Assembly (NCBI RefSeq): GCF_007994075.1
Contig: NZ_VIWU01000001.1
Span: forward strand, 1,550,001 to 1,614,000
DNA length: 64,000 nt
Direction: 5' to 3'
Origin: Pseudonocardia hierapolitana
Lineage (GTDB): Bacteria; Actinomycetota; Actinomycetes; Mycobacteriales; Pseudonocardiaceae
A program made the position numbers and the translations under genes. Position 1 is the first letter of the stretch. Every line of letters starts with the position of its first letter. The notes beneath the pieces were generated by a model. That model did no database searches, was not told the origin of the DNA, and was given only the letters and a program-made list of their open reading frames with translations. Below are positions 2,946-28,128 of the stretch, piece after piece.

Positions 2946-5900
2946 GTGTCCCCGAACGTGAACGTCGTGGCGGACCGGTTCCGGCTGCTCGGCCCCATCG
3001 GCAAGGGCAACATGGGTGAGGTCCACCAGGCGGTGGACGAGCGGGCCGCGGAGGGCGTCAAGGACCGCGTGGTCGCGGTCAAGCTGATCCTGCGCAGCCG
3101 CTCGGGGGCACCTATCAACACCTCCGCGGACAACAAGGCGGTGGAGCGGTTCGAGCGGGAAGTGCGCATCATGCACAAGCTCGACCACCCGCACCTGCCC
3201 CGCACCATCGATGGCGGGGTGGACGGCAACGGACTGCCATACCTGGCGATGGAGTACCTCGACGGTCGCCGGCTGCAGGACCTGTCCGACGAGCACGCCA
3301 AGCTGCCGTTCTCCTGGGTCGCGGCGATCGGCGCGCAGATCGCAGATGGCCTCGCGGCGGCCCACCGTCTCGACGTGATCCACCGGGACCTCAAGCCGTC
3401 GAACGTCATGCTGCTGAGGAGCGGCACTGTGAAGGTGCTCGACTTCGGGATGGGCCGCATCCTCGGTGACTCCGACGGCTCCCACCTCACCAGCACCGGG
3501 GTCACCGTGGGCACCGCGCGCTACATGGCGCCGGAGCAGTTCCACCGGGCTGCCGTCGGCCCGGCCGCGGACCTGTACGCGCTCGGCTGCGTGCTGTTCG
3601 AGCTGCTCGCCGGGGTTCCGCCGTTCACCGACGCCTCCCCTCATGAGCTCGGGCAGAAGCACATCAAGGAGCTTCCGCCCCCGCTGGCGCCGCAGCGTCC
3701 GGGCATCCCGCCGGAGCTGAACCGGCTCATCGAGCGTCTCCTGCAGAAGGATCCGGCGAACCGGCCGGTCGACGCCGCCACCGTTCGGGACGCCCTCCGT
3801 CCCCTCGCGGTGGGCGACGACACGATCGACGGCTGGGAGGACCTCAACCCGGTCACCGCGCTCGCCACCACCGCCCCCGCGCGCGAGCCCGACACCGAGC
3901 CGGTGCTCGTCGCCCGGCAGCCCGCGGCCGGCATGGACGTCTTCGACGTGCACCGCAAACTCATCCGGGACTACCGGGACTTCACCGAGAGCGGCACCGT
4001 GATCCGCGACGCGGACGTCCGGGCGTTCGTGGAGAAAGACCTCGACGAGAAGTCGCAGTGGCCCGACCCGTGGCTCTCGCTGAACCCGTTCTTCGCCTCC
4101 GGTGGCACCGTGCTGGAGCTGGCGAGCGCCGGGGTGCTACACGAGGAGTGCACCCGCATCTTCCAGGCCAAGAAGACCGAGGGCGGCCAGGTGTGCGACG
4201 GGCGGCCGCTCACGCTTCACCGCCATCAGCGCGAGGCCGTCGACGTCGCAAAGTCCGGGGCGTCGTACGTGCTGACGACGGGCACCGGCTCCGGCAAGTC
4301 GCTGGCCTACATCGTGCCGATCGTCGACAAGGTGCTCCGGGACCGCGAGAGCGAGGGACCGGACGCCCGCAAGCGGGTGCGCGCGATCATCGTCTATCCG
4401 ATGAACGCGCTGGCCAACAGCCAGGTGAAGGAGCTGGAGAAGTACCTCGTCGACGGCTACGGGAAGGGCCGCGAGCCGGTCACCTTCGCCCGCTACACCG
4501 GCCAGGAGAACGACGAGGACCGCAAGCGGATCCGCGACAACCCGCCCGACATCCTGCTCACCAACTACGTGATGTTGGAGCTGATGCTCACGCGACCGGA
4601 CGACCGGCGCTCGTTGATCAAGATGGCGAGCGGGCTGGAGTTCCTCGTCTTCGACGAGCTGCACACCTACCGCGGCCGCCAGGGCGCCGACGTGGCACTG
4701 CTGATCCGCCGGGTCCGGGAAGCCTGCAAGGCCGAGCGGCTGCAGTGCGTGGGCACGTCGGCCACGATGTCCAGCGAGGGCACCTTCGCCGACCAGCAGA
4801 AGGTGGTCGCCACGGTCGCGTCCATCCTGTTCGGCACCACCGTCGATCCGGCGAACGTCATCGGCGAGACCCTGGTCCGCGCCACGGCCGACACCCCCGA
4901 CACCGTGCCGGTCGAGCGGCTCGCCGGACTCGACTCCCCGCGGTCCTACGACGACCTGCGCAACGATCCGCTCGCGCGGTGGATCGAGACGCACTTCGGC
5001 CTCACCACGGTCGACGGTCGCCTGGTCCGCCAGCGGCCTGCCAAGATCGAGGAAGCGGCAGCGGAGCTCGCCGTGAGCTCCGGTCTGTCGGCGGAGGTCT
5101 GCGGGGAGGCGATCCGGCGGACCCTGCGCGCAGGCTCGGAGGCGCGGCACCCGGTCACGAACCGCCCCCTCTTCGCGTTCCGACTCCACCAGTTCCTGTC
5201 CAAGGGCGACACCGTTTACGTCACCCTCGAGGACAAGGCGACCCGCCAGATGACCCGCGACTACCAGCGGGTCCAGCCGGGCTCCGACGGCAAGATCCTC
5301 CTGCCGCTCGCCTTCTGCCGTGACTGCGGGCAGGAGTACCTGGCCGTCTGGCGGACGACGAAGGACGGCACGGTCGTCTACGAGCCCCGGCAGGACACCG
5401 TGGCCACGGGCGGCAAGAGCGACGACGGCTACCTCTACATCGACCGCGAACGGCCCTGGCCGCGCACCCTCGACGAGGCGATCACCGACCGGAGGCTCCC
5501 GGAGTCCTGGCTGGAGACCGACGACCACGACCGGGAGGTCGTGCGGGACAGCTACCGGAAGCGGCTCCCTCGGGCGATCACCGTCGACCCCTACGGCGAC
5601 GAGGGCAGCGGCGAGCTCGAGGCAGCGTTCATCCCGGCCCCGTTCCTGTTCTGCCTGAACTGTAATGTCAGCAGCGAGCGGGTCCGGGCAAAGGACTTCG
5701 CGATGTTGGCCTCCCTCAACCACGAGGGCCGTTCCTCCGCGACGTCGCTCGTGTCGGCCTCGATCGTGCGTTCGCTCAAGAACGTCGAGGCGTTGGACCC
5801 GAAGGCGCGCAAGCTGCTCACGTTTGTCGACAACCGGCAGGACGCCTCACTGCAGGCGGGCCATTTCAACGACTTCGTGCAGATCACCCAGCTGCGCTCG

Positions 5901-8900
5901 GCCCTGTACCGGGCGATGGTCGACGCGGGCCCGGAGGGCCTCCGGCACGAGGAGCTCGCGTCGCGCGTGACGGACGCCCTCGGCTTGGATGTAGCCGACT
6001 ACACCGGTTCCGCCGACGTGGCCCCCTCGCTCGCCCGCAACGCCGCGAAGACGCTGCGGGACGTGATCGCCTTCCGGCTCTACGTCGACCTGCAGCGCGG
6101 CTGGCGCGTCACCATGCCCAACCTGGAGCAGACCGGCCTGCTCGTGGTCGACTACGAGGACCTCGACTGGCTCGCCGCGCAGGAGGGCCGGTGGGCCAAG
6201 GCCCAGCCGGAGCTGCGGGACGCCGAGCCAGGCCGCCGGGTCGAGATCATGCGGGTGTTGCTGGACGAGATGCGCCGCGGACTCGCGATCGACGTGCAGC
6301 ATTTCCGCGACGACTTCGACGCCCTGCAGCGCGCCAGCGAGGAACGGCTCGTCGAGCCGTGGAGGCTCTCGACCAACGACCGCCCACAGGTGGGCACCGC
6401 CTATCCGCGGAGCTCGAAGCCGGGGATGGACCGCTCGGGTCTGTTCCTCTCCGGCGGTGGGAAGGTCGGCAAGTACCTGCGCCGGACGCATTTCCCGAAG
6501 CTGACTAAGGACGAGTTGCAGCTCGTCATCGCCGGCCTCCTGGAGGTACTGGCGCAGGCCGAGCTGGTGACCAGGGTCGAGCACGTCCCGGAGCGCGCAC
6601 GGCAGTACCGGCGCAGCACCGGGCAGTCGATCACGGGCTACCGCATCGCCGCCCGGACATTGGTGTGGCGGGCCGGCCCGGGTGAGCGGGGCGCCCACGA
6701 TCCGCTCACCCGCACCTACGGCAGCGGCGAGGGTCCCCGCGTCAACCCGTTCTTCCGTGACCTCTACAAGAGCACGGCCGGGGTGCTCGGCGGCCTCGCG
6801 GCGCGCGAGCACACCGCCCAGGTCGACCCCAAGGTGCGGGAGGAGCGCGAAGAGGACTTCCGCAAGGGAGCGCTCAAGCTGCTCTACTGCTCACCGACGA
6901 TGGAGTTGGGCGTCGACATCGCCGAGCTCAACGCCGTCATGATGCGCAACGTCCCGCCGACGCCGGCCAACTACGCGCAGCGCAGCGGCCGGGCGGGCCG
7001 GTCGGGCCAGCCGGCGCTCGTCACCACCTACTGCGCCACCGGCAACAGCCACGACCAGTACTACTTCCGCCGTTCCGATCGCATGGTCGCCGGCGTCGTC
7101 GCCCCACCGCGGCTGGACCTCGCCAACGAGGACCTGGTGCGTTCCCACGTACAGGCCGTCTGGCTCGCCGAGTCCCGGCTCAAGCTGGGCAGAGCCATCC
7201 CCGAGATCATCGACATCTCCTACCCGGAGGACGCCCGCACGCCCGCGCCGGCGCTGCGGCTGCACGAGCACATCACCGACACGCTGAGCGATCCCGACGT
7301 GCAGCGCCGGGCCGCCGCCGCCGCCCGCGAGGTGTTCGGCGGCCTGATCGAGGACTTCGCGCGGACGACCTGGTGGCACGATCGGTGGATCGACGACGCC
7401 GTGCGCGCTGCGGGTGAGCAGTTCGACCGCGGGTTCGACCGCTGGCGCGAGCTGTTCAAGGCCGCGCTGATCGACCAGGCCGAACAGAACCGCCGGGTGC
7501 TCGACCACACGCTCTCCGAACGCGACCGCAACGCCGCCGTGCGACGCCGGCGGGAGGCGGAGACCCAGCTCAACCTGTTGAAGAACGAGAGCGTGGACAG
7601 CAAGTCGGTGCTGTCGGACTTCAACCCGTACCGCTACTTGGCCAGCGAGGGGTTCCTACCCGGCTACTCGTTCCCCCGGCTGCCGCTGGCCGCCTACATT
7701 CCCGCGGCGTCCCGCCGGTTCGACGAGGGCGACTACCTGCAGCGACCCCGGTTCCTAGCGATCCGCGAGTTCGGGCCGGGAGCGCTCATCTACCACGAGG
7801 GCTCCCGCTATGTGGTGAATCGGATCCAGCTGCCGCCGGACGTCACCGGCGACGTGCACACCACCGAGGCCAAGCGATGCGCAGCCTGCGGCTACCACCA
7901 CGACGTGAACGACAACGCCGACAAGTGCGAGTTCTGCAAGGAGCCGCTGCCGGAGAAGACGGTCGGGCTCCTCAAGCTGCACACCGTCTACACCCAACGC
8001 CGCGAGCGGATCTCCTCCGACGAGGAGGAGCGCAGGCGGGCCGGGTTCCGGCTGGTGACTTCGTACCGATTCCACGACCACGGCGCGCGTCCGGGCCGGC
8101 GGGACGCCCTCGTCTCCGACAGCGGAGGTCGGTTCGCAGCGGTGACCTACGGCGACTCGGCCACCGTCCGGATCACCAACGTCGGGCGGTGGCGAGCGGC
8201 CGAGAACGAGCCGCCCGGCTTCTGGCTCGACCCCGCTGACGGCCGCTGGATGAACAACCGCGACGCCGCGGAGGCGTCCGGTGACTCCAGCGAGCTGCCC
8301 CTCGTCGACGCCGACGGCAACGAGGGGCGCCGCAAGAAGCGGGTGCTCCCCTACGTCGAGGACCGCCGCAACATCCTGGTGTTCACGCTCGCGAAGCCGC
8401 TGCCGGAGCCAGTCGCGCTGTCGGTCATGTTCGCGCTGGAGCGGGGCATCGAGGCCGCCTTCGAGCTGGAGGATTCGGAGCTGACGAGTGAGCTCCTGCC
8501 GCCGGACGAGGGCGACCGGGACCGGATGCTGTTCACCGAGGCCGCCGAGGGCGGGGCGGGTGTGCTGCGGCTGCTGCAGTCGGACCGGACCGCGCTGCGC
8601 ACGGCGGCCGCGATGGCACTGGAGATCTGTCACTTCGCTGCCGACGGCACCGACCTCGGTGGCCCGCACCCCAACCGTCCCTGCGCGCGGGGCTGCTACG
8701 ACTGCCTGCTCACCTACGGCAACCAGACCCACCACGGCGCGATCGACCGCCATTCCGTCCGTGACCTGCTCCTGCGGTTGGCGGGCGCGGACGTCGTCGA
8801 GACCGGCCGGGGCGAGACCCGTACCGAGCAGCTGACCCGACTCGCCGAGCAGTCCGATACGAAGCTGGAGGGGAACCTCATCTCCTGGCTCAAGGAACGC

Positions 8901-9161
8901 GGGTTGCGGCTGCCTGACGAAGCGCAGGCATTCATCCCCGAGGCGCTCGCCAAGCCCGATTTCGTCTACCGCCTGCCCGGCGCCAACGTCGCGATCTTCG
9001 TCGACGGCCCCGTCCACGAGTACGAGTCGGTCGCCAACCGTGACCGCGATGCGGAGGACCGCTTGCTGGACAGCGGTTGGGACGTGGTGCGGTTCCCGCA
9101 CGACGCCGACTGGTCGAAGATCATCGAGCAGAACTCGTACTGCTTCGGAACCCGTGTGTGA
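2946..9161 (+). CDS. Ser/Thr kinase - DEXH helicase - DUF1998 - Vsr-like nuclease fusion
   Basis: 2071 residues, GTG start with GGGAGG five bases upstream. Residues 10-285 are a complete Hanks kinase: glycine loop GKGNMGEV, Lys46, HRDLKPSN with Asp148, DFG at 166-168, APE at 195-197. A linker leads into a superfamily 2 helicase: Walker A TGTGSGKS near 445-452, DELH at 570, SAT at 605, a CRDCG zinc motif near 790, the FVDNRQDAS segment near 957, and TMELGVDIAEL plus SGRAGRSGQ at about 1318-1350. GCYDCLLTYGNQTHHG near 1916 is the DUF1998 signature. The last ~90 residues (KPDFVY, VAIFVDGPVHE, GWDVVRF) resemble the Vsr/PD-(D/E)xK fold. DEXH/DUF1998 proteins occur in DISARM (DrmA/DrmB) and Druantia (DruE); a kinase at the front of this class is unusual to my knowledge. 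First gene of the operon; 17 bases separate it from the next. Confidence 0.9.
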   Translation: MSPNVNVVADRFRLLGPIGKGNMGEVHQAVDERAAEGVKDRVVAVKLILRSRSGAPINTSADNKAVERFEREVRIMHKLDHPHLPRTIDGGVDGNGLPYLAMEYLDGRRLQDLSDEHAKLPFSWVAAIGAQIADGLAAAHRLDVIHRDLKPSNVMLLRSGTVKVLDFGMGRILGDSDGSHLTSTGVTVGTARYMAPEQFHRAAVGPAADLYALGCVLFELLAGVPPFTDASPHELGQKHIKELPPPLAPQRPGIPPELNRLIERLLQKDPANRPVDAATVRDALRPLAVGDDTIDGWEDLNPVTALATTAPAREPDTEPVLVARQPAAGMDVFDVHRKLIRDYRDFTESGTVIRDADVRAFVEKDLDEKSQWPDPWLSLNPFFASGGTVLELASAGVLHEECTRIFQAKKTEGGQVCDGRPLTLHRHQREAVDVAKSGASYVLTTGTGSGKSLAYIVPIVDKVLRDRESEGPDARKRVRAIIVYPMNALANSQVKELEKYLVDGYGKGREPVTFARYTGQENDEDRKRIRDNPPDILLTNYVMLELMLTRPDDRRSLIKMASGLEFLVFDELHTYRGRQGADVALLIRRVREACKAERLQCVGTSATMSSEGTFADQQKVVATVASILFGTTVDPANVIGETLVRATADTPDTVPVERLAGLDSPRSYDDLRNDPLARWIETHFGLTTVDGRLVRQRPAKIEEAAAELAVSSGLSAEVCGEAIRRTLRAGSEARHPVTNRPLFAFRLHQFLSKGDTVYVTLEDKATRQMTRDYQRVQPGSDGKILLPLAFCRDCGQEYLAVWRTTKDGTVVYEPRQDTVATGGKSDDGYLYIDRERPWPRTLDEAITDRRLPESWLETDDHDREVVRDSYRKRLPRAITVDPYGDEGSGELEAAFIPAPFLFCLNCNVSSERVRAKDFAMLASLNHEGRSSATSLVSASIVRSLKNVEALDPKARKLLTFVDNRQDASLQAGHFNDFVQITQLRSALYRAMVDAGPEGLRHEELASRVTDALGLDVADYTGSADVAPSLARNAAKTLRDVIAFRLYVDLQRGWRVTMPNLEQTGLLVVDYEDLDWLAAQEGRWAKAQPELRDAEPGRRVEIMRVLLDEMRRGLAIDVQHFRDDFDALQRASEERLVEPWRLSTNDRPQVGTAYPRSSKPGMDRSGLFLSGGGKVGKYLRRTHFPKLTKDELQLVIAGLLEVLAQAELVTRVEHVPERARQYRRSTGQSITGYRIAARTLVWRAGPGERGAHDPLTRTYGSGEGPRVNPFFRDLYKSTAGVLGGLAAREHTAQVDPKVREEREEDFRKGALKLLYCSPTMELGVDIAELNAVMMRNVPPTPANYAQRSGRAGRSGQPALVTTYCATGNSHDQYYFRRSDRMVAGVVAPPRLDLANEDLVRSHVQAVWLAESRLKLGRAIPEIIDISYPEDARTPAPALRLHEHITDTLSDPDVQRRAAAAAREVFGGLIEDFARTTWWHDRWIDDAVRAAGEQFDRGFDRWRELFKAALIDQAEQNRRVLDHTLSERDRNAAVRRRREAETQLNLLKNESVDSKSVLSDFNPYRYLASEGFLPGYSFPRLPLAAYIPAASRRFDEGDYLQRPRFLAIREFGPGALIYHEGSRYVVNRIQLPPDVTGDVHTTEAKRCAACGYHHDVNDNADKCEFCKEPLPEKTVGLLKLHTVYTQRRERISSDEEERRRAGFRLVTSYRFHDHGARPGRRDALVSDSGGRFAAVTYGDSATVRITNVGRWRAAENEPPGFWLDPADGRWMNNRDAAEASGDSSELPLVDADGNEGRRKKRVLPYVEDRRNILVFTLAKPLPEPVALSVMFALERGIEAAFELEDSELTSELLPPDEGDRDRMLFTEAAEGGAGVLRLLQSDRTALRTAAAMALEICHFAADGTDLGGPHPNRPCARGCYDCLLTYGNQTHHGAIDRHSVRDLLLRLAGADVVETGRGETRTEQLTRLAEQSDTKLEGNLISWLKERGLRLPDEAQAFIPEALAKPDFVYRLPGANVAIFVDGPVHEYESVANRDRDAEDRLLDSGWDVVRFPHDADWSKIIEQNSYCFGTRV

Positions 9162-9178
9162 GGAACGAAAGAGCTGAG

Positions 9179-16258: not shown

Positions 16259-16303
16259 ATGGACGGGTTCCGAGCGCTCGGCGCGGGAGGCGCGGCACCG
16301 TGA
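16259..16303 (+). other. Possible 14-codon leader ORF coupled to the PIN-FHA gene
   Basis: Within the 195-base gap after the methyltransferase, an ATG at 16259 is preceded by a strong GAGGGAGG ribosome site and reads 14 codons to a TGA at 16301-16303 that overlaps the GTG start of the next gene as GTGA. This could couple translation or be chance. No other convincing gene lies in the gap. Confidence 0.22.
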
Positions 16304-17361: not shown

Positions 17362-17370
17362 GGATCGCGG

Positions 17371-18045: not shown

Positions 18046-19360
18046 TCCGGTGCGCGTGACCGACGTGGCGGGTGTCGAGTTCACGCTGGGTGAGCGGATC
18101 GCGAAAGGCGCGCAGGGCACCGTCTACCGCGTCGTGCGCCACCCGGACTACGCGATCAAACTGCTCGAGCGCGAGCAGGATCTCAAGCGCATTGCGACAG
18201 TGCGGAGGCTGCCGCTCGACGATCTCGCCGTCGCCGCTCCCCTCACGCTGATCCGCGAAGGTGGGGCCGGATACGTCATGCGACTCGCTGGCGACATGAA
18301 GCCGCTGCGGGAGCAGTACCTGCCTCGCGAGTTCGGCCGAGGGGACAACCCAGCGTGGTATCTCAGGACGGGCGGTCTTCGGCGCAGGCTGGCGATCGCA
18401 GCGAACGTCGCGCGGACACTGGCGGAACTCCATGCCCGGGGGCTGGCGTACGTCGACCTCAACCCGAACAACGTCATGGTGTCGGACGATCTCCAGCGGG
18501 ACAACACGTGGTTGATCGACACCGACAACCTGACCTCGCTGTCGGATCCCCGCTCGGAGATCCTGGGGTTTCCCGGCTACCTAGCACCGGAACGAAACCC
18601 CCGCAAGGCGTCGCCGCCGTCGACGTTGGCCGATGCCTACAGCCTCGGGGTCCTGGTCTTCCGGATGCTCGTGCTGACCCATCCGCTGATGGGATTCGCC
18701 GCCGACGAGATGGACGGTAACGAAGCACAGAAGGCAGCCGACCGTGGCGAACTGCCCTACATCGGCGACCCGCTCGACGACACGAACCGCCTGGCGGATG
18801 GCAGTCTGCCTGCGCTGCTCTTCGAGTTGGTGCTCAGCGGCCGACTCAAGGAACTCTGCCGCGACACGTTCGGCCCGGGCAGGCTCGCCCCGGCCAAGCG
18901 CCCCGGGTCGAGCAGATGGCGGGACGTGCTGCACACCGCGCTCGACAACGTCGTCGAATGCCGGGACGGGTGTGGCTGGACGTTCTACCGGTCGCGGCCG
19001 CAGTGCCCGAACTGCGGCGCCACAGCCGGATCGACGGTGCTCGTCACCGTCTACGGCGGCGACCTCGAGCAACCGCTGGCCGCGCGCGACTCCTTCGTCC
19101 TCTCCCCGCAGATGGATGTCGATCTCCTCCCGCGGCATGCGTGGGGGCGGCACACCTCGGATGACGCCGTGGTGACCTTTCGCCCGGAGCGAGAGGGCTT
19201 CGCGGTCCTGTCACACGGGGAGTCGCGCGTGGTCGACGCGTCGGGGAGGGACGTGCGGCGTCTTCCGACACCCCGTGCGAAGGAGGTCGTCCGGGTCCGT
19301 CTGGAGACACCCGGCCTGCCCGATCGTGTCCTGGCGCTACGGTCGATCGGGGCGGCGTGA
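18032..19360 (+). CDS. Non-canonical protein kinase with C-terminal zinc ribbon
   Basis: 442 residues from the first of two adjacent ATGs (18032, 18035), overlapping the vWA gene. The glycine loop is KGAQGTVYRV and the ATP lysine sits in AIKLL near residue 41. The catalytic loop is YVDLNPNNVM near 140 (Tyr-Val-Asp in place of HRD) and the metal motif is LIDTDNL near 162 in place of DFG; LAPERN replaces the APE region. Both key aspartates are kept, so activity is plausible with altered geometry. A CRDGCGW...CPNCGA zinc ribbon follows at about 309-332, with a beta-rich tail. Kinases of this shape travel with TerY-like vWA proteins. The stop overlaps the next start as GTGA. A likely circuit is this kinase, the fused kinase and the FHA protein, by inference. 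Confidence 0.8.
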   Translation: MMPSDPVRVTDVAGVEFTLGERIAKGAQGTVYRVVRHPDYAIKLLEREQDLKRIATVRRLPLDDLAVAAPLTLIREGGAGYVMRLAGDMKPLREQYLPREFGRGDNPAWYLRTGGLRRRLAIAANVARTLAELHARGLAYVDLNPNNVMVSDDLQRDNTWLIDTDNLTSLSDPRSEILGFPGYLAPERNPRKASPPSTLADAYSLGVLVFRMLVLTHPLMGFAADEMDGNEAQKAADRGELPYIGDPLDDTNRLADGSLPALLFELVLSGRLKELCRDTFGPGRLAPAKRPGSSRWRDVLHTALDNVVECRDGCGWTFYRSRPQCPNCGATAGSTVLVTVYGGDLEQPLAARDSFVLSPQMDVDLLPRHAWGRHTSDDAVVTFRPEREGFAVLSHGESRVVDASGRDVRRLPTPRAKEVVRVRLETPGLPDRVLALRSIGAA

Positions 19361-22300
19361 AGATCCACGACATCGCCCACCGCGACGAGCGTGTCGTCCG
19401 CATCGAACCCGTCAGACCGATGCCGATCGAAAACGGCACTCCGGTGCGCCTCGACGTCTCGGAGGCCGGCATCACGGTCCGGCACGGCGCGCGGGTCGGT
19501 GCCGGTCGGCTCGTGGACCACGACGACCATGAATGGCTCGCCGCGGTTGTCCCGTCCGGTGCGTACCTCGCCGAGTTGCTGGTCTCGGATCCCGCCGCTG
19601 CGGTGCGGGTACTCACCTACGACGGCGACGAGCGGTGGCCCGATGGCAGGCAGGTCGGCGTCGACGATCAGGCGGTCGAGGACGCACGCCGCTTCACCCG
19701 CGCCACCAGCACGGTCGCGGACGTCACCGCCTGGCTCGCGGGCGAGTTCCGGCTCGACGGTGGTGGTGGACCGGTGAGCGTCATCGGCACCGGTGGATCG
19801 GCCGCCATGCGCGCCGACGCCTTCCGCCTCGTCGGTGCCTCCGTCGTCGTGGATGTGCGGCTCGTGGACGACATGTTGCTGGTGGAGCGCATCACCCGGC
19901 GCGACCAGGGCCAGGAGTCGCGGCTCACGCTCGTCCACGGCTCGGTCTCGTTCGTCGACGCGACCCGGCTCGGGAAGCTGTCGTTCAGCGAGCAGCAAGA
20001 ACTCAAGCGCCTCGCCGAGGCCGACAATGCCTATCTGGGCATCTGGAACGAGTACAACGACCTCGAACGGGAGGCCGCGCGGGCCGCGGCCCGCGCAATG
20101 GGATCGGCACCCTACGACCGGTGGACCTTGCTCCCGGACGGCCGCATGGAATTCGAGCTCGTACGGCACCGCAGCTCGGACGTGTTACGGGACAGCATCG
20201 GCAGGGAGAAGGTGGGGCTCGAGGCCGGCTCCCGAGTGGCCTTCGACGGCTCCGCCGATCCTTCGCACGCCAAGGACCGCGTTGTCATCGGCGACGCGGT
20301 CGTCGGTCCCCGGGGCACGATCATCCTGGAACCCGCCCGCCAGGTCGATCGCGACGCTGTGCCGCAACGGGGCTACCTCGCCGGCGCCTACACGCTCGAC
20401 AAGGTCCGCATCGACCGCCGGAACCGGGCACAGGTCGCCATGATGACGGGAGCGACGTTCCCCGCGCGCCAGGTCGGGCTGATTCTCGGCGATCAGCGAC
20501 CGGAGCCGGTCGGCCGAGCCCGGCGCTTCCCACCGTTGTCGGCGCGGGTGAAGGAGATCCTGGGGGGCCTGCCGACCGAGGCCCAGGTCGCAGCCATCGA
20601 CCTCGCCATCAACTCACGCGATGTCGTGCTCATCCAGGGACCACCCGGCACCGGTAAGACCCGTGTCATCGCAGCGATCCAGGCGCGCCTCGCGGAGATC
20701 AACAAGGAAGCGCCCGCGGTCAGCAAGCGGGTGCTACTGACCAGCTACCAGCACGACGCCGTCGCCAACCTCGTTCAGGCCGCCGACGATGGGACGTTGC
20801 CGCCGGTGAAGCTTGGGCGCACCCACGAGCAAGAGGACCGGACGCATCTCGACGCCTGGACCATGGACCTCGCGGCACGGCTGGCCCAACGTCACGACAA
20901 CTCCCGGCCCAACCAACAAGTTCGGGCCCAGCAGGCGTTGCTCGACCGGACGACCGCCTATCGTGAGCAGCCCTTCGACGTCAGTGCCACCGTCGACCTG
21001 TTGAACTGGGTCGCGCAACAGGCAGGGCTCGTCGGAACGGATGTCGCGTTCGAGGCCCGCAAGCTCGCGAAGACGCTCGCGCATACCCTAGGGGCACACG
21101 TTCAGCAGGCCGCCCAGGGCCGCCTTCTCCGGCTCGCCCGCGCACTCCGCGAGACGCCCGAGGCATACGCGGACGACGGCGCGCTCACTGCCATCCGGGT
21201 CCTACACGACGGGGAGTTCGTCGACCTCCTCGACGACGCCCAGCGGATCGCGGTCGAAGAGGCAGCCCGCGGTACTGTCGAACCCCGGGATGCCGCGCCA
21301 AGGCTCAAGGCCGTCAAACAGGATGTGATCGATCGACTTCTCGACGGTCGCGCCCGGGCCGGGATCATCGCCGCTATCCCGGCGGTCGAGGCCTTGCTCG
21401 ACCGTGCCGCAGCCCACGCGGAGCGCGAGGTCATGCTCGCTGCAAGCCCGATCGATCTCGCGATCGAGCAGTTCCGGAAGGTCATCGAGACCCAGCCGCA
21501 CGAGCTCCGGGCGTCGATCGTGGCGCACACGCGCGCACTCGCGGCTACCTGTCAGCAGGCGGTTTCCGGGCAGATGCGGGCCACCCAGTCGGTGCCGTTC
21601 GCTACGGTGATCGTCGACGAGGCGGCCCGCGCGAACCCGCTCGACCTGATGATCCCGATCAGCCTCGCGAGCGAGCGGGTGGTTCTCGTCGGTGACCACC
21701 GGCAGCTTCCTCAGCTGCTCGATGACCAGCTCGTTCCGCGGCTCTCGTCCCGGCACAACTCTGCAGTGGTCGAATCCGTGCTCAATCGGTCCCTGTTCGA
21801 ACGCCTCTTCACCAAGCTGCGCGACTGCGAACGGCGCGACGGCACCAAGCGGGTCATCACACTCGACCGCCAGTTCCGCATGCATCCGGTTCTGGGCTCG
21901 TTCGTCAGCGAGCAGTTCTACGCGCCGCACGGTGAGCACGTCGCCAACGGCCGGGCGGACGGGACAGCGTTCGCGCACGATCTTCCGGGCTATGGAACGG
22001 CCGTGTGCGGCTGGATCGACGTCCCGCACGACCGCGGCCGGGAAGAGCGTGTCGGCAGCAGCATACGGCGGCGTCGCGAAGCCGAGATCATCGTCCGCGA
22101 GCTCGCCGACGGTCTGCAGGCCTCGGCCGCGCATACGTTCGGCGTCATCACGTTCTACTCCGGTCAGGTCACCGCGATCTGGGAAGCGATGTACGCCGAG
22201 GGGATGGCGATCCGGGACGGCGCGGACTACCGCCTCAACCCGTCGGTTCCGTGGCTCCACGACGCCCGCGGGCTCCCCCGTGTGCGGATCGGCTCGGTCG

Positions 22301-22563
22301 ACGCGTTCCAGGGCCGCGAGTTCGACGTCGTCTACCTGTCCACCGTGCGCTCGAACCGACCCCGCCCAGGAAAGGCGCCCCACCTCGGCTTCCTCGTCCT
22401 GCCGAACCGCCTGTGCGTGGCGATGAGCCGGCAGCGACGGCTGCTCGTCGCGGTCGGCGACGCCGCGATGTTCACCTCGGAGTCCGGCCGGGTCGCTGTT
22501 CCAGCCCTGGCTGCCTTCCACGGCCTGACGGGTGGTGAGCATGGCTGCAGGCGATCCGCATGA
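19357..22563 (+). CDS. Superfamily I helicase, Dna2/Upf1 type (AAA_11/AAA_12)
   Basis: 1068 residues, GTG start inside the previous stop. Roughly 390 N-terminal residues of beta-rich unrecognised sequence precede a complete SF1B helicase: GPPGTGKTR near 428, DEAAR near 753, GDHRQLPQL near 778, LDRQFRMHP, VDAFQGREFD near 981 and VAMSRQRR near 1020. These helicases move 5'-3' on DNA or RNA; a COG1112-type relative works with a kinase in the Mokosh system. Two other genes of the operon also encode helicases (SF2 DEXH and SNF2), which is a heavy helicase load for one system. The next gene overlaps by 23 bases. Confidence 0.9.
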   Translation: MKIHDIAHRDERVVRIEPVRPMPIENGTPVRLDVSEAGITVRHGARVGAGRLVDHDDHEWLAAVVPSGAYLAELLVSDPAAAVRVLTYDGDERWPDGRQVGVDDQAVEDARRFTRATSTVADVTAWLAGEFRLDGGGGPVSVIGTGGSAAMRADAFRLVGASVVVDVRLVDDMLLVERITRRDQGQESRLTLVHGSVSFVDATRLGKLSFSEQQELKRLAEADNAYLGIWNEYNDLEREAARAAARAMGSAPYDRWTLLPDGRMEFELVRHRSSDVLRDSIGREKVGLEAGSRVAFDGSADPSHAKDRVVIGDAVVGPRGTIILEPARQVDRDAVPQRGYLAGAYTLDKVRIDRRNRAQVAMMTGATFPARQVGLILGDQRPEPVGRARRFPPLSARVKEILGGLPTEAQVAAIDLAINSRDVVLIQGPPGTGKTRVIAAIQARLAEINKEAPAVSKRVLLTSYQHDAVANLVQAADDGTLPPVKLGRTHEQEDRTHLDAWTMDLAARLAQRHDNSRPNQQVRAQQALLDRTTAYREQPFDVSATVDLLNWVAQQAGLVGTDVAFEARKLAKTLAHTLGAHVQQAAQGRLLRLARALRETPEAYADDGALTAIRVLHDGEFVDLLDDAQRIAVEEAARGTVEPRDAAPRLKAVKQDVIDRLLDGRARAGIIAAIPAVEALLDRAAAHAEREVMLAASPIDLAIEQFRKVIETQPHELRASIVAHTRALAATCQQAVSGQMRATQSVPFATVIVDEAARANPLDLMIPISLASERVVLVGDHRQLPQLLDDQLVPRLSSRHNSAVVESVLNRSLFERLFTKLRDCERRDGTKRVITLDRQFRMHPVLGSFVSEQFYAPHGEHVANGRADGTAFAHDLPGYGTAVCGWIDVPHDRGREERVGSSIRRRREAEIIVRELADGLQASAAHTFGVITFYSGQVTAIWEAMYAEGMAIRDGADYRLNPSVPWLHDARGLPRVRIGSVDAFQGREFDVVYLSTVRSNRPRPGKAPHLGFLVLPNRLCVAMSRQRRLLVAVGDAAMFTSESGRVAVPALAAFHGLTGGEHGCRRSA

Positions 22564-23788
22564 CCTCCCGATCTTCACGTTGGCCGATCTGCCGGACCGC
22601 ACTCACCACGTCGTGCTGACACCGGCCCACCGGTGGCGCGTTGTGATCGAATGGACCGTCCCCACCGGGAAGGACATCCTGCTCGAGACCGTGCTCAGGC
22701 TCCGCCGGGCGGGCGAGCAGTCATCGGCACGGATCAGCGACCTGATGCAACTGCCGGACGACCTCGTTCGCCACCTGCTCGCGCGTGTCGCGGCCGAGCG
22801 CATGAACATCGCACCCGACGGCGGGACGACGTCTGCCGGGACGCGGGTCGCGTGGGTGTACCGGGACATCGCCACCAGCGAGCTCTGGCCACAGCCTGCC
22901 GACGAACGGCCCCCGCTGCCCGTACGCTTCGCCGGCCACATAGGCTCGTGGGCGCAGGGAAGCGCGGGCCGGCCCGTCAGGGTCGAAGGTCTGCTCGTCA
23001 CCGTCGACGATCGCAAGCCCGTCGCGCCGACGCACGTCGAGCTGGCGCGCTTTAGCCGGGCATCCGATGACCCGCACCGCCGCACAGTCATCGTCGGTTC
23101 CGACGAGAGCTGCCTGGTCGCCAGCCCTGTCCGGTCGACCTCTGCCGGTTTCGTCGTCGAGACCACGCTCGGGACCCCACAGGTCGGCCTGAGCCGGCGC
23201 TTGATGACGCTGGCGACCGAGCACCGGAACATCGACCACTGGCTGCGGAAGATTCCCCGGTCGGCGCCCGATCTCACTCTGACCGAACCCCTACGCGAAG
23301 CCGCGGACGAGCTGCGCGACCTGCTCGACGAGCTGCGGCGCCGTGCCGGGCCTGCTCCGCGCGAGATCAGCACAGCGACGTCCCACGCGCTTCTCGGCAG
23401 TATCGAGTTCACGCTCCGCCGGCTGTGCGACCACCTCGAGTACAACACGAATCGGGACGCGAACCGGCCCACTGCCCAGCCGGCGGACGGAGCGGCCGTG
23501 GCGCGCCGGCTGGGGCTGGACGACGAGACCTTTACGCAGCTCGTGAAAGCCGAGCCGGGCAGCCTCGACGGCACCGTCAACCGTCTCCTTGCCGCGGAAC
23601 GACTGATGGTGTCGCATCCCTCATCGGTGCTGGGCAGGCTGGCACGCGCCGCGTCGCGCTGGACGCGGCTGGCCGCTTCCCGGACCGATCCCCCCAATTC
23701 CGTCATCCCCCTCGCGCGCGACGTGGTCGCGTTGTGCGACGAGATCCTGCAGACATCGGAGGTAGTCGATGGCCGCGAAGCCGGGTAG
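22541..23788 (+). CDS. Unrecognised protein, possible winged-helix N-terminus
   Basis: 415 residues from the ATG at 22541; a GTG at 22532 is an alternative three codons longer. I do not recognise the family. Residues about 30-85 alternate short helices with a strand (ILLETVLRLRRAG, ISDLMQLPDDLVRHLLARV) in a pattern that fits a winged helix. The middle is beta-rich, and the C-terminal half is helical with a charged stretch of leucine- and arginine-rich sequence. No catalytic motif, zinc site, signal peptide or membrane segment is evident. It sits between the SF1 helicase and the McrB-like gene, overlapping both, so it is an obligate part of the unit and may be an adaptor or DNA-binding subunit. 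Confidence 0.7.
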   Translation: MAAGDPHDLPIFTLADLPDRTHHVVLTPAHRWRVVIEWTVPTGKDILLETVLRLRRAGEQSSARISDLMQLPDDLVRHLLARVAAERMNIAPDGGTTSAGTRVAWVYRDIATSELWPQPADERPPLPVRFAGHIGSWAQGSAGRPVRVEGLLVTVDDRKPVAPTHVELARFSRASDDPHRRTVIVGSDESCLVASPVRSTSAGFVVETTLGTPQVGLSRRLMTLATEHRNIDHWLRKIPRSAPDLTLTEPLREAADELRDLLDELRRRAGPAPREISTATSHALLGSIEFTLRRLCDHLEYNTNRDANRPTAQPADGAAVARRLGLDDETFTQLVKAEPGSLDGTVNRLLAAERLMVSHPSSVLGRLARAASRWTRLAASRTDPPNSVIPLARDVVALCDEILQTSEVVDGREAG

Positions 23789-26042
23789 GGGCAAGGACCC
23801 CGCCGCGAAGGAAGCGGCCTTGCTCACCGAGGTCGAGAAGGGCCTGGCCTCGACGACACCGGTTCCGGATGAGATCGCGGCGGAAACACCCCGCTTCGAC
23901 GTAGCCGACGCCGAGGTGACCACCGCTCTGAAGCTGCGAAACCTCTGGAACAACGTGAAGCAAAGAGAGACGCAGTGGCTTAATGCGAAGAACAAAGCGG
24001 ACAAGGCCCTTGCCGACCTCGCGACCGAACAGGAACGGCTGAAGGCCGACCGGGCAGCCTTGGCGGAGCGGGAGGAACGTGCCGCCGAACGTGAGGCCGC
24101 GCTCGCACGCGCTGAGGCCGAGATCGAGTCGCAGCGCTCAGCCGCGAAAGCGGGGTTCGCCGACGAGCTTCGGACGATGACGAAAGACGCCGCCTGCCGC
24201 CGCGACGAGCTCCTCGCCGAGGCCGCGACGATCGAGGACGAGGCCCGCAGACGCGCGGATGCGATCAGATCCGCGGCCCACGACGAAGTGCAGCGCGAAC
24301 GCGAACGCATCACCGCGGAGACGGTCCGGCTACGCGACCTGCAGGCGGATCTCAACATGCAAAAGGCCCAGCTCGAGCACGAGATCGAATGGGCGCGCAC
24401 CCGCGAGGCGATGGCCGCGGAGCACCTGGAACGACGCACAGAGGAGCGTGTCACCCTCATCCGCGCGGACCTCGACGAGGCCCGGCAAATGCTCGAGATC
24501 GAGCGGGATCTCCGCCAATCCCGCGACCAGGCACTACGCGACCTGCGGAACCAGCTTGACACCTATGGAGACGACCCTCAGATCCTCCAAGAGGAGAACG
24601 ACGCGCTGCGGTCCCAGGTGGCCAACTTGCGCGATGAACTCAGCCGTCGACCGTCCCAGGAGCAGGTCGACGACCTGCGCCAGCGCGCGCAGCGTGCCGA
24701 GGAGGCACAAGAGCAGGAGACGTACTGGCGGCAACAACACGACCGCATCGACCGCCAGCTTCGGTACCAGCTGATGAACGTCGGCGAGCTGGAGGTTCTC
24801 CGGGACGAGCGCGACACGCTGGCCGCGCAACGGGAAACGCTCCGGCAAGCTCTTGCACAGCAGCGCAAGGAATGGGAGGACCTACAGGCGAGCCAGAACG
24901 TTACAGAGCCGTTCCCGGCATGCTCCGCCTACGATCGTGACTCCGGCTTGCAGCAGTGGCCTGCGGAGTTCTCCGATCTCGGCGCGGACTTTACGCTTGC
25001 CCATCTCGTTGTAGACATCCGCGCCCGGATGGCGACCGCGTCGCCCGTCGCCTTCTACTACACCGAGTCGGACGTCCGTTTGTTTATGGCGGGACTTGCT
25101 GCGAGCCGCCTGCATCTGCTGCAAGGGATGTCCGGAACCGGCAAGACCAGCCTTCCCCGCGAGTTCTTCCAAGCACTCAGCGGCGATGGTGCCGCGCAGA
25201 TGATCGAGGTGCAGGCCGGCTGGCGAGACAAGGACGATCTCTTCGGCTACTATAATGCGTTCGAGAAGCGATTCGCGGAGAGTGAGTTCACGAAGGCACT
25301 CTACCGGGCCCTGCTCCCGGCAAACGAGGATCGCCCCATGGTTATCGTGCTCGACGAGATGAACCTCGCCCATCCTGAGCAGTACTTCGGGTCGATGCTC
25401 TCGATCCTGGAGACCGCGGTGAGCGAGCCAGGCTATGTCGACCTCCTGACGCACGAGTTGCAGGGGGTGCCCGAGCGGTTCGAGGGTTCACGTCTCCCAC
25501 TTGCGCGCAACGTCTGGTTCGTGGGTACTGCCAACCACGACGAGACGACGGTCGCGTTCGCGGACAAGACCTACGATCGCGCCCACGTCCAAGAACTCCC
25601 GGCCCGCCACGAACCATTCGCGGCATCCAAGCAAGCCCCTGCCGCTCCGATCGCGTTCAGCGAGCTGAGAGGGGCGTTCGAGGCGGCGATGCGTGATCAT
25701 CGCGCCGACGCCGACACAGTGAAACAGTTTTTGAACGATCACCTTCACGAGCGCTTCGCCCGATTTGGGGTCAGCTGGGGCAACCGGTTCGAACGCCAGG
25801 CCGAGCGGTTCGTACCTGTCATCCTCGCGACGGGTGGAGACATGACCGAAGCGGTGGATCACCTGGTGGCGACCAAGCTGGTGCGCAAGCTCGAAGATCG
25901 GTTCGGCGTCGTTCCCGACCAGCTCGCCGAGTTGGCCGACGACATCGAAAAGCGCTGGAGCCTCGACGGCGGAAAACCGGTGAAGACGCTCGACAGGATT
26001 CGGCGGGAGGCATCCCGGCTGCGGGGCGGTTACGGCTCGTGA
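23769..26042 (+). CDS. Coiled-coil McrB-like AAA+ NTPase
   Basis: 757 residues, ATG with GGAGG eight bases upstream and a 20-base overlap with the previous gene. Residues about 60-385 are nearly continuous coiled coil, rich in Glu, Arg and Ala. The AAA+ module follows: Walker A GMSGTGKTS near 453, Walker B VIVLDEMNLAHPE near 525 and the sensor FVGTANHDETT near 583. DEMN and a GTxN-like sensor are diagnostic of the McrB/AAA_5 clade, whose classical member McrB forms a hexamer that translocates with McrC as nuclease partner. Here the DNA-binding head of McrB is replaced by a long coiled coil, and the partner is the overlapping DUF2357-like gene. It may form a ring motor coupled to another operon component. 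Confidence 0.85.
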   Translation: MAAKPGRGKDPAAKEAALLTEVEKGLASTTPVPDEIAAETPRFDVADAEVTTALKLRNLWNNVKQRETQWLNAKNKADKALADLATEQERLKADRAALAEREERAAEREAALARAEAEIESQRSAAKAGFADELRTMTKDAACRRDELLAEAATIEDEARRRADAIRSAAHDEVQRERERITAETVRLRDLQADLNMQKAQLEHEIEWARTREAMAAEHLERRTEERVTLIRADLDEARQMLEIERDLRQSRDQALRDLRNQLDTYGDDPQILQEENDALRSQVANLRDELSRRPSQEQVDDLRQRAQRAEEAQEQETYWRQQHDRIDRQLRYQLMNVGELEVLRDERDTLAAQRETLRQALAQQRKEWEDLQASQNVTEPFPACSAYDRDSGLQQWPAEFSDLGADFTLAHLVVDIRARMATASPVAFYYTESDVRLFMAGLAASRLHLLQGMSGTGKTSLPREFFQALSGDGAAQMIEVQAGWRDKDDLFGYYNAFEKRFAESEFTKALYRALLPANEDRPMVIVLDEMNLAHPEQYFGSMLSILETAVSEPGYVDLLTHELQGVPERFEGSRLPLARNVWFVGTANHDETTVAFADKTYDRAHVQELPARHEPFAASKQAPAAPIAFSELRGAFEAAMRDHRADADTVKQFLNDHLHERFARFGVSWGNRFERQAERFVPVILATGGDMTEAVDHLVATKLVRKLEDRFGVVPDQLAELADDIEKRWSLDGGKPVKTLDRIRREASRLRGGYGS

Positions 26043-28114
26043 CTCCCCCTCGGGACCGTGTGTCGGGCCGCGCCAGCGAACCACTTCCGAACTGGACCGG
26101 GCGATGGGCAGCCGGGGGAATCCCCTGTCTCGACGATCGACGCGACGCTGGGAACGCCTCTCGGGACGACAGCACCTCGGATGATCTCGACGCCCTCGCG
26201 ACGCTGGGGGCCGGCTTGCATGCGGCCGTGAGCACCGGATCCTGGTCTGCCGTACGAGACGCGCAGCTGCTCGCAGGGCTGGATGATGAGAGCCTCCAAC
26301 TCGACCGGCGGGAGATCGTCCTGCGGGACAACATCTCCTCGATCGCCCAGGTCTGTGAACGGTTCGTCACGCGGCTCGGTGAACTCGTGGAGCTTCGCCC
26401 GGTCGCCCAGGTCAAGCGGCCTGCCCGGAAGGCACTCGCCCGCCTGGCCGCGCACACCGAGGACTGGGCGGCCAGGACCCTGAGCGGCCCGATCCCACGG
26501 CGAGCCCTCGCCGTATCCCGCGATGAGGACGCGGACCTCTACGAGAACCGGATGGTGATCGAGCTCGTCCATCCGATCCTCACCTCGGCGATCTCAGCCC
26601 GTGTTCAGCGCCTTCGACGGATACGCGCCGACTTGGCCGATCTCGAACGTGCCCGCGACGAGGGAACGCATCGACGCCGGGACCTGCTGTACCGGTTTTG
26701 GGGAGGTGACGCCGCCCGGGTTGGGGAATCGTCCGATCGCGCCGAGCGGACACTTGAGGAGCTGGAAGGGCTCGGAGCCCGGTTGCAGAACCTGCGCGGT
26801 AGCACCCTCGGACGACTGCTTCGTGGCCGCCGAACTGGACTGCGGACGCTCCGGCGTACGAACGTCATCGCCAATGACCGCCACTATCGTGCTGCCGGTC
26901 TCGTGTGGTCGGCGTTCGACCGCAAGCCCGATCTTCAGGAAGACCCCGAAGAACGCAGTGAGCGGCTACGACGACGCCATCTGGCGTTCGATCGGTACGC
27001 GCTGGGATTGCTCGTTCGCGCGTTCGCCGAGCTCGGTTACTCGCCTGACGGCGACACTATCCCGTCCCCCGGCCACCCTGTCACCCTCACCGGAGCGTGG
27101 GGCACGGCGACCATCCGCAAGGACGACGACGGCACGCTCACCCTTGAGTCACACGGCACGGCGACGCGGTTCGTTCCCTTGATCGATCTCGTCGGGCCGG
27201 ACGACGACCCGACGACGGTCGAAGCGAGATGGCAGTCGGTGATCGGGGCGGTGGCGAAGCCCACGGTTGTCGTGCACCTCTCCGCAAGCGAACCCCTCCG
27301 CGCGCTGCCGCCCCGGCTGGCGGCACCCTTGATCTCCGCCGCCAAGGACGACATTGCGGGACGGCGCGACGCGACGGCGATCCCCGTCTCACCGCTGGAG
27401 ACGACCAGCTTGGAACGAGTGGCTCGCGCTGTCGCTACTGCGGTAATGGCGCCGGCATTGCTGAGCTACCCACCGGCCGTCTCGCTGGACGGTCGCCCCG
27501 TACCGCGGCGCCTCATCGAGCGGCTCATGGACCTCGGCCCTCCCCGCCTCGGGATGAGCCCGATCTTCCACCGACCGACCCCTGACGAACTCCACCTGCG
27601 ACGTCCGATGATCGCATCGGAGTCCACCCAGCTGGACACGCTCCTACGCGACATCAGCAGGAGGGCTAAGGCTCCTGGTTGGGAACGTGACATCGCCGAC
27701 GAGATCTTGCGCCTCCGGTCAGGCTTCGCTAACGCCGAGTCGGCCGTGAATACCTTCCTCACGTGTCCGGGATGCGGCAACGAGGCGAGCCCTGAGCAGG
27801 TGGGTCGGGAGAAGGACCTCTTTTCGATCACCTGTCGTTCGTGCGGCACGCGCTGGGGCCATGAACGATGTGGGGCCTGCCAGGCCCGCGTCCCGATCAT
27901 CGAGCCGGAACGCGAGCCTCTCAATCCAGAAGTACGCGGTCCCGGATGGGTCGAACGCATCTTCGGCCACGAGGCACTCGCGTCGCCCTGCTGGGCGCGA
28001 ACCGTCGGTGCCCGCTACATCTGCACCAGCTGCGGGAAATGCCCGGAAAGCGGGAGCGAGGCGGGAGTCAACTGCACCCGCTGCTACACCGCGCCGTCAT
28101 ACTGCGGGACATGA
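26039..28114 (+). CDS. DUF2357-like McrB partner with C-terminal zinc clusters
   Basis: 691 residues, GTG start in a GTGA overlap. The segment DEDADLYENRMVIELVHPILTSA near residue 160-185 resembles the conserved E-N-R core of DUF2357 proteins, which accompany McrB-like ATPases. About 575-691 carries at least eight cysteines in CxxC pairs (CPGCG, CRSCGTRWGHERCGACQ, CTSCGKC, CTRC), consistent with two or three zinc ribbons. I cannot see a PD-(D/E)xK nuclease like that of McrC, so nuclease activity is unproven. It is the last gene of the operon; a small hairpin lies at 28129. The McrB pairing is supported by adjacency, the DUF2357 call is tentative. Confidence 0.65.
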   Translation: MTPPRDRVSGRASEPLPNWTGRWAAGGIPCLDDRRDAGNASRDDSTSDDLDALATLGAGLHAAVSTGSWSAVRDAQLLAGLDDESLQLDRREIVLRDNISSIAQVCERFVTRLGELVELRPVAQVKRPARKALARLAAHTEDWAARTLSGPIPRRALAVSRDEDADLYENRMVIELVHPILTSAISARVQRLRRIRADLADLERARDEGTHRRRDLLYRFWGGDAARVGESSDRAERTLEELEGLGARLQNLRGSTLGRLLRGRRTGLRTLRRTNVIANDRHYRAAGLVWSAFDRKPDLQEDPEERSERLRRRHLAFDRYALGLLVRAFAELGYSPDGDTIPSPGHPVTLTGAWGTATIRKDDDGTLTLESHGTATRFVPLIDLVGPDDDPTTVEARWQSVIGAVAKPTVVVHLSASEPLRALPPRLAAPLISAAKDDIAGRRDATAIPVSPLETTSLERVARAVATAVMAPALLSYPPAVSLDGRPVPRRLIERLMDLGPPRLGMSPIFHRPTPDELHLRRPMIASESTQLDTLLRDISRRAKAPGWERDIADEILRLRSGFANAESAVNTFLTCPGCGNEASPEQVGREKDLFSITCRSCGTRWGHERCGACQARVPIIEPEREPLNPEVRGPGWVERIFGHEALASPCWARTVGARYICTSCGKCPESGSEAGVNCTRCYTAPSYCGT

Positions 28115-28128
28115 TATTCTTTTCGCAC

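Follow-up and report, generated by a model that had tools for sequence, protein, structure and literature searches.

Can a run of ten defence genes on one strand be read as a single system, or does it hold several systems standing side by side? The question arises from a window of 64,000 nucleotides of Pseudonocardia hierapolitana (assembly GCF_007994075.1, contig NZ_VIWU01000001.1, positions 1,550,001 to 1,614,000), in which ten long co-directional open reading frames (ORFs), here called g1 to g10, span positions 2946-28114, that is 1552946-1578114 of a single 8.86-Mb contig. A preliminary description of this DNA had proposed a ten-gene phage-defence operon that joins a DISARM-like core, a kinase/FHA/vWA group and an McrB/DUF2357 module and that fits no named system. 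The ten reading frames are indeed there, the three component groups were correctly recognized and a phage-defence locus is the right setting; the reading as one unnamed system is not supported, and the defence scheme built on it holds in part. On the comparisons made here, the ten genes are two described defence systems set end to end, not one. The first three fit ARMADA Type I as given in the main text of PMC12458937, and g5-g10 fit Type II CoCoNuT as given in the main text of PMC11090510 (in what follows, both papers are cited for their main texts), with g4 marking a subtype of the latter.

The two halves of the ten-gene run

In ARMADA Type I, which is abundant in Actinomycetota, the first gene encodes a YprA-like helicase that carries DUF1998 and ends in a Vsr-type tail; a BrxHII-like and then a PglX-like gene come behind it (PMC12458937). 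The YprA proteins of this type are described as a clade of their own, with a BrxA-like insertion behind RecA1. Gene content, order and domains make the assignment of g1-g3 to a kinase-fused variant of this system well supported. The predicted ArmC-type YprA-like helicase is g1 (2946..9161, plus strand like all ten genes; 2071 amino acids, aa), where Pfam recognizes an N-terminal Ser/Thr kinase (Pkinase), DEAD, Helicase_C and MZB (the MrfA/DUF1998 zinc-binding domain). Its kinase motifs VAVK, HRDLKPSN and DFG are present, and its best PADLOC profile is Druantia DruE3 (343 bits), in agreement with the placing of the ARMADA YprA nearest to Druantia (PMC12458937). The C-terminus is a Vsr/DUF559-like PD-(D/E)xK tail on sub-threshold Pfam support, since the window's own matches (E 0.009-0.04) lie below the curated cut-offs. 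When the tail was aligned with those of 11 relatives (7/19 tails were excluded as divergent), the matches at E up to 0.1 (best 3.4e-05) were to MTES_1575 in 12/12 members, DUF559 in 11/12 and Vsr in 3/12; a PDB sequence and profile search with the tail gave nothing useful. The ArmA-type gene would be g2 (9158..12067; 969 aa), a BrxHII/RapA/DrmD-like SNF2 helicase (Pfam Helicase_C/SNF2) that scores 1649 bits with the PADLOC profile PDLC02853, named DpdE, and 270 bits with DrmD; the NCBIfam DrmD model gives 299 bits against a cut-off of 610. Its stop overlaps the start ATG of g3 (12067..16104; 1345 aa), the putative ArmB-type Eco57I/PglX-like adenine DNA methyltransferase (Pfam Eco57I, 66 bits; PADLOC DrmMI, 236 bits; motif NPPW in the translation).

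The three genes travel together. A g2 query against one genome per species matched at least 595 stretches; 548 of them encode a relative, and the comparison was made with the best 80 loci. Order and strand of g1-g2-g3 are kept in 75 of these, which excludes a chance grouping, and the remaining five lack g1 or g3. Their hosts are mostly actinobacteria, with Chloroflexi, Riflebacteria, gammaproteobacteria and one euryarchaeote. A kinase is fused in frame to the YprA-like helicase in 21/80 loci. A g2 tree with 78 rows (L013, L065 and L081 of 81 are absent, their extracted frames being shorter than 800 aa) places the 20 kinase-fused rows, the window included, in one 21-row clade with support 100; the remaining row of the clade, L008, is truncated within g1. 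As the fused rows form one supported clade, the fusion is, by this tree, ancient within a single actinobacterial ARMADA lineage, and the window locus is not peculiar in having it. The word 'kinase' occurs 0 times in the published main text of PMC12458937, and the fused kinase of g1 is in this respect a departure from ARMADA Type I as described there. Where the fusion is absent, five Streptomyces ARMADA loci (L023, L029, L030, L032, L033; at about 3.4-4.4 kb of each locus) have a separate kinase-like gene immediately upstream of YprA, on the opposite strand.

Other named systems were considered and set aside. Class 1 DISARM has homologues of g2 and g3 in DrmD (an SNF2-like helicase) and DrmMI (an adenine methylase), and DrmA, DrmD and DrmMI are the only DISARM similarities that PADLOC names among the matches listed; however, DISARM splits DrmA from DrmB, whereas the window has the YprA and DUF1998 parts in one protein, and no PLD/DrmC protein is found by Pfam in the ten genes. 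BREX and Pgl systems are likewise excluded by the absence of a PglZ-type Pfam match in the ten genes, and the matches to the BREX methyltransferase and PglW lie far below the NCBIfam cut-offs. On both points the preliminary description had judged correctly. It had also suggested a search against defence-system models, which in PADLOC brought up similarities to DruE3, DrmD, DrmMI, DpdE and MkoA; membership of MADS fails at the NCBIfam cut-offs (MAD6 147 bits against 460, MAD2 25 bits against 720). The label DpdE for g2 does not hold either (NCBIfam DpdE 192 bits, cut-off 500); among the matches listed, Dpd appears just once more, in g1, which weakly resembles DpdJ (82 bits, cut-off 800).

The second half, g4-g10, is well supported as an actinobacterial subtype of Type II CoCoNuT. 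Common to g5-g10 and to the system of PMC11090510 are, in the same order, a vWA protein, a kinase-zinc ribbon protein, CnuH, CnuE, a coiled-coil CnuB with NxD and a DUF2357-type CnuC; the window differs by having no PP2C phosphatase, an extra NYN-zinc ribbon-FHA gene and no conserved HEPN RxxxxH. The TerY-like vWA protein is g5 (17371..18045; Pfam VWA_2, 39 bits), with the metal-ion-dependent adhesion site (MIDAS) residues DxSxS, T and D in a motif scan. It overlaps g6 (18032..19360), a TerY-P-type Ser/Thr kinase with a C-terminal zinc ribbon (Pfam Pkinase, 51 bits; motifs DLNPNN, LIDTD and CPNC). The predicted CnuH, g7 (19357..22563; Pfam AAA_11/AAA_12), is a superfamily 1 (UPF1/DNA2-like) helicase with an N-terminal extension of about 400 aa; residues 30-1063 of the protein can be aligned with the helicase of a Pseudanabaena CoCoNuT. 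For the CnuH N-terminus of Type II, SmpB-like and RelE-like domains are described. It stands beside g8 (22541..23788), the predicted CnuE, with a winged helix-turn-helix (wHTH)-like N-terminus and a single HEPN-like fold, the pairing described for Type II. CnuB would be g9 (23769..26042; Pfam AAA_5), with a coiled coil judged from the translation alone and a McrB-like NTPase in which NxD, here NHDE, replaces NxxD, as it does in 9/9 CnuB proteins compared. The last gene, g10 (26039..28114), has no Pfam match; tblastn places it at E 1.6e-50 and 4.6e-61 on places annotated DUF2357 in two of the plasmid operons described below (L100, L101), it is homologous to proteins so annotated in 3/4 of these operons, and its Cys-rich zinc ribbons show CxxC pairs, as expected of the McrC-like partner CnuC.

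Mokosh was also considered for g6-g7. Its MkoA is a kinase-helicase, and g7 scores 284 bits with the PADLOC MkoA profile while g6 matches the kinase part weakly; in the window, by contrast, kinase and helicase are separate genes within a CoCoNuT operon. The match is explained by a kinase plus a related superfamily 1 helicase, and the surrounding gene set is that of CoCoNuT.

Operons with the order vWA-PP2C-kinase-helicase-hypothetical-AAA-DUF2357 are found, by annotation and tblastn, on plasmids of Deinococcus, Pseudanabaena, Rhodoferax and Polaromonas. The complete set g4-g10 recurs with its gene order intact in a genome of the Micromonospora genus (L106/L107; 40-69% identity) and in Mycolicibacterium (L112; 40-68% identity), so that a chance grouping is excluded here too. 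A g9 query against 396 genomes of the phylum gave 16 matches at E 1e-15, the alignment covering most of the protein only in its own genome and in the genomes G340 and G256, and a g10 query against 100 relatives matched its own genome alone. The Polaromonas CnuB query had 0 matches in 5 ARMADA-bearing genomes, 2 in 369 gammaproteobacterial class genomes and 5 among plasmid records at E 1e-30.

The seam between the halves is visible in the spacing. The tight packing noted in the preliminary description holds for most junctions and fails at g3/g4: the probable start of g4 is a GTG at 16300 with a GGGAGG motif ahead of it, the homologues beginning near codon 30 of the longest ORF, and therefore 195 bp (16105..16299), the widest spacing of the run, separate g3 from g4 at the meeting point of the two systems. 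A scan of this junction (15900-16500) found no sigma-70-like promoter and no terminator-like site, a scan that is uninformative for actinobacteria, and no repeats of at least 11 bases are common to 16045-16320 and 28101-30100. Third-position GC (guanine plus cytosine) is 0.915-0.933 in g1-g3 and 0.767-0.890 in g4-g10; composition varies here in any case, because the ORF left of g1 has 0.753. The gene order itself, compared across loci as the preliminary description had proposed, separates the halves, each of which also stands alone in some loci. None of the 80 ARMADA loci has g4-g8 or g10 in the flanks examined, with one weak match to g9 (L063).

The FHA-NYN subtype of CoCoNuT

What sets the second half apart is g4 (16300..17361), which combines a Regnase/Zc3h12a-like NYN domain, predicted to be an RNase, with a zinc ribbon and an FHA domain. 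Both folds are recognized, and Pfam matches FHA and a Zc3h12a-type NYN, so that the 'PIN' of the preliminary description, whose domain list is otherwise largely borne out apart from the sub-threshold Vsr tail, becomes a NYN domain with a PIN-like fold. A search of PDB sequences with the g4 profile matched only an FHA chain. In an alignment made up of the window, 33 of the 83 homologues and two loci (P0067 occurring a second time as one of these), the NYN acidic residues 10, 48, 79 and 98 are invariant in 36/36 rows, and the FHA domain keeps its phosphothreonine-binding residues.

Among 5.8 billion proteins, g4 has 83 homologues and g10 at least 97, in hosts that include Saccharopolyspora, Mycolicibacterium, Micromonospora, Dactylosporangium, Catellatospora, Nocardia, Rhodococcus and Agromyces. 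Among the matches listed, the longest contigs of g4 and g10 homologues are identical in size in 27 cases; with one list shifted by 1-50 bases either way, the mean number of coincidences is 0.14 and the maximum 1. Again among the matches listed, 24 of the 35 g4 contigs of at least 15 kb are matched to a g10 contig, and two of the 11 unmatched ones (32,755 and 6,488,666 in size), read directly, both carry g10. A CnuC tree of 104 rows, from which P0191 (itself among the 27 linked), P0194 and P0195 were excluded as being of at most 550 aa, gathers the 29 g4-linked rows in a single 90-row clade (support 100) that is separate from the PP2C-type and phosphatase-less types; the branches of the outgroup are long, and the remaining 61 rows of the clade say nothing for or against a link to g4. 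The gene is rare in each single group searched, with one match in 394 genomes of the class (its own), one in 160 of the Micromonospora genus, one in 326 of the Mycobacterium genus and none in 54 of the Nonomuraea genus. A search of plasmids for g4 gave no match, and in viral contigs there were 26 pattern matches and no relative. Two distant g4-like (NYN-FHA-like) stretches lie in Actinomadura formosensis (L110:8372-9337, minus strand, and 12929-13810, plus strand; 27-30% identity), with no other CoCoNuT genes within 19.9 kb, and hint at a wider NYN-FHA family.

The second mark of the subtype is in g8, which the preliminary description had listed as an unknown protein and whose N-terminus is of the CnuE type, the fold of its C-terminal part being HEPN-like. 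Pfam has no match for g8 and Foldseek none under E 0.001, the HEPN call resting on VIA-align. The HEPN motif stands at one column in 7/8 CnuE proteins outside the subtype, and at any one column in at most 4/18 of the FHA-type CnuE proteins (the set is without P0096, which is short, and P0105, and P0100, P0101 and P0104 are also outside it, as their C-termini do not align). Since the HEPN RxxxxH is conserved in most Type II CoCoNuT and is not obligatory according to PMC11090510, the window operon still counts as Type II, as a variant. In g8 the HEPN domain is now probably structural, and the NYN domain of g4 is therefore the likely active RNase; an FHA-linked NYN RNase may, in other words, have taken over from the usual HEPN RNase.

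The third mark is the phosphatase. PP2C is present in 4/4 plasmid operons searched and was found in none of the window, L106, L107 and L112, all of which have the vWA protein and the kinase; the PP2C-bearing TerY-P triad is described as frequent in Type II CoCoNuT and not as part of its core (PMC11090510). All three FHA-type CoCoNuT loci examined hold their own kinase g6. This FHA-NYN subtype appears to be the new part of the finding, as it is absent from the Type II CoCoNuT descriptions found: 'NYN', 'PIN' and 'FHA' each occur 0 times in the main text of PMC11090510. Both halves of the run correspond to described systems; in the literature consulted, the FHA-NYN variant does not. Neither it, nor the kinase-ARMADA clade, nor an exchange of McrBC for CoCoNuT is described in the literature searched (which lies outside supplementary tables, bioRxiv at large and most subscription papers).

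The place behind ARMADA

Why should a CoCoNuT stand directly behind ARMADA? Thermocrispum, Actinokineospora and Actinocrispum have two further genes behind g1-g2-g3 and then a UvrD helicase related to the UvrD-type gene of the window (30034..32181, plus strand; N-terminal extension of about 255 aa; Pfam). The two genes were predicted from their size to be McrB and McrC, and Pfam bore this out in Thermocrispum, Amycolatopsis and S. chattanoogensis (AAA_5 and PF10117), with PF10117 in 3/3 McrC candidates tested; the nine proteins scanned behind g3 comprise three McrB-like, three McrC, one DUF6119, one UvrD and one without a match. The count of this place covers 62 of the 80 ARMADA loci, 18 having no g3 or less than 4 kb behind it, and most of the 62 reach about 6 kb past g3. 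A co-directional McrB lies within 6 kb behind g3 in 25/62, in 23 of these with McrC, about equally often behind kinase-fused ARMADA (7/16) and unfused ARMADA (16/46). The window g2 groups, with support 99, with four Pseudonocardiaceae loci (L002, L003, L004 and L016), all of which have McrBC behind ARMADA. In the window genome there is no PF10117 (McrC) match, the same search being positive in 1/14 control genomes, and no match to the Thermocrispum McrC protein, in a search without a positive control. The simplest explanation is that CoCoNuT, itself a McrBC derivative, took the place of McrBC behind ARMADA. An association of McrBC with DISARM-like cassettes that hold a YprA-like helicase is already published (PMC11090510, PMC12458937); the window shares with it a Type IV module beside such a cassette and differs in having CoCoNuT there instead of McrBC, with no McrC found.

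UvrD also recurs downstream of ARMADA Type I: in 12/62 loci it lies within 6 kb of g3 and points the same way, and in Kineosporia and S. sedi it stands directly behind g3. A UvrD-type gene with a RelE-like N-terminus, ArmD, is described for ARMADA Type II (PMC12458937); the UvrD neighbour recurring here is one of ARMADA Type I loci. As in the window, a minus-strand methylase follows UvrD in Thermocrispum and Actinokineospora, with an Mrr-like match in the latter.

The pairing is not confined to the window. Among nine Type II CoCoNuT loci elsewhere with flanks examined, ARMADA or ARMADA-like genes adjoin three. Mycolicibacterium has an ARMADA without a fused kinase (47-57% identity), McrBC and then an FHA-type CoCoNuT pointing the opposite way. 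On a Nostoc linckia plasmid, CoCoNuT is followed co-directionally by distant homologues of g2 (27%), g3, YprA (2108 aa) and UvrD, the last adjoining YprA and 32.6% identical over 728 aa to the UvrD of the window; on a Pseudanabaena plasmid, CoCoNuT and distant homologues of g2, g3, UvrD and YprA (1896 aa) run in the same direction with other genes interspersed. Both plasmid sets are called ARMADA-like by content. No ARMADA was found near CoCoNuT in Micromonospora (a 32.8-kb contig with sugar-transport genes upstream of g4-g10), Deinococcus, Rhodoferax, Polaromonas, G340 (20 kb) and G256 (16 kb), the one similarity in the Polaromonas flank being an SNF2 match to g2 at 23%, on the opposite strand. 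Because orders and orientations differ between phyla, these cases suggest a repeated, selected pairing of ARMADA with CoCoNuT, in a small sample. Superoperons of Type II CoCoNuT with DNA restriction systems, in which CoCoNuT typically comes last, have been described (PMC11090510), and in the window, too, CoCoNuT lies downstream of ARMADA.

Several further genes surround the run. Upstream of g1, a 678-aa ORF (634-2670, plus strand) has no Pfam match and partial relatives near ARMADA in L013 and L051. Between CoCoNuT and UvrD, at 28276-29832 on the minus strand, lies a PIN_8 protein (Pfam, 215 bits) in DNA of lower GC (0.58 for 28001-30000), with no relative among the ARMADA and CoCoNuT loci compared; the UvrD gene behind it has a third-position GC of 0.929. 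An Mrr-type restriction endonuclease and an N6 DNA methylase follow (32236-35125, minus strand); several loci have a relative of the methylase close to ARMADA, on one side or the other. Next comes an SMC/RecN-like ATPase (35174-37690, plus strand), which has a 36% relative adjoining the FHA-type CoCoNuT of Mycolicibacterium (L112:16495-18852).

A proposed layered defence and its rivals

Taken together, we consider it probable, with some reserve, that the locus is an ARMADA Type I and a Type II CoCoNuT subtype in McrBC's place, which form a layered defence with a circuit of g6, FHA and NYN. The order of action, the activities and the phosphorylation and RNA targets are inferred from identities, gene order, conservation and the presence or loss of motifs. 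ARMADA would act first, g3 methylating self DNA while the g1 and g2 helicases, together with the PD-(D/E)xK tail, act on phage DNA that lacks the modification, as can be supposed from experiments on an ARMADA Type II cluster, which had a direct, non-abortive effect on phage (PMC12458937). CoCoNuT would be the fall-back second line, as PMC11090510 proposes for superoperons, with g5 and g6 switched on when infection persists. The kinase g6 would then make phosphothreonine, and the g4 FHA domain would bind it and bring the NYN RNase to a CnuH/CnuE/CnuBC complex on RNA, where NYN would cut RNA and halt infection. In such a scheme the vWA protein g5 may be a metal-dependent scaffold, the McrBC-like motor of g9-g10 and the g7 helicase may serve assembly on RNA, and without a PP2C eraser the phospho-switch may be one-way. 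A fuller version, in which the actinobacterial subtype swapped its effector, with HEPN catalytically retired, the phosphatase gone and an FHA-switched NYN RNase installed, and was plugged in behind ARMADA as layered defence, is put forward tentatively, at somewhat less than an even chance.

Quite conceivable, if again short of even, is the view that two independent systems are merely neighbours in a defence island, their adjacency functionless and the FHA-NYN protein an accessory of CoCoNuT only. Each half occurs without the other, the island also has PIN_8, UvrD, Mrr, N6 methyltransferase and SMC-like genes, and the 195-bp gap and unlike third-position GC fall between the halves; moreover, 37/62 ARMADA loci have no McrB within the roughly 6 kb examined, and 6/9 other CoCoNuT loci have no ARMADA nearby. 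Mere neighbourhood sits less well with the three other pairings, in Mycolicibacterium (with McrBC between), Nostoc and Pseudanabaena, which have unlike orders, and with the superoperons of PMC11090510. Far less probable is the single phospho-circuit over all ten genes, close to what the preliminary description had in mind, in which the g1 kinase marks ARMADA or CoCoNuT parts and the g4 FHA domain reads the mark. The conserved kinase motifs of g1, the phosphothreonine-binding residues of FHA and the common direction of all genes would suit it. Yet g4 is missing at E 1e-20 from 48/49 ARMADA-bearing genomes searched, including 19/20 with a fused kinase, and the one match is 32% identical; because a g1-type kinase and g4 hardly ever occur together in the genomes searched, g1 is an unlikely writer for g4. 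The ARMADA beside the FHA-type CoCoNuT of Mycolicibacterium lacks the kinase, Micromonospora has g4-g10 without ARMADA, and every FHA-type locus examined has g6, which on the first of these points and on the 19/20 is the more natural writer. These observations speak equally against the ten genes as one system.

It is also unlikely that the HEPN domain of CnuE is still a working RNase, acting through R294, D297 and Y301 (helix 2), with NYN-FHA in a regulatory role, such as that of a scaffold with an inactive NYN domain. These three residues are invariant in FHA-type CnuE and the HEPN-like fold is kept, but no column holds RX4-6H in more than 4/18 of these proteins, and the invariant NYN acidic residues are as for an active enzyme.

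If the layered-defence reading is true, bacterial antiviral defence would contain a kinase-to-reader-to-RNase circuit with the NYN fold found in the animal RNases Regnase-1/ZC3H12 and KHNYN. The subtype makes it testable which CoCoNuT nuclease does the work. The place behind ARMADA, finally, is suggested as a socket for Type IV modules, be they McrBC or CoCoNuT, and would give a handle on how defence systems travel together.

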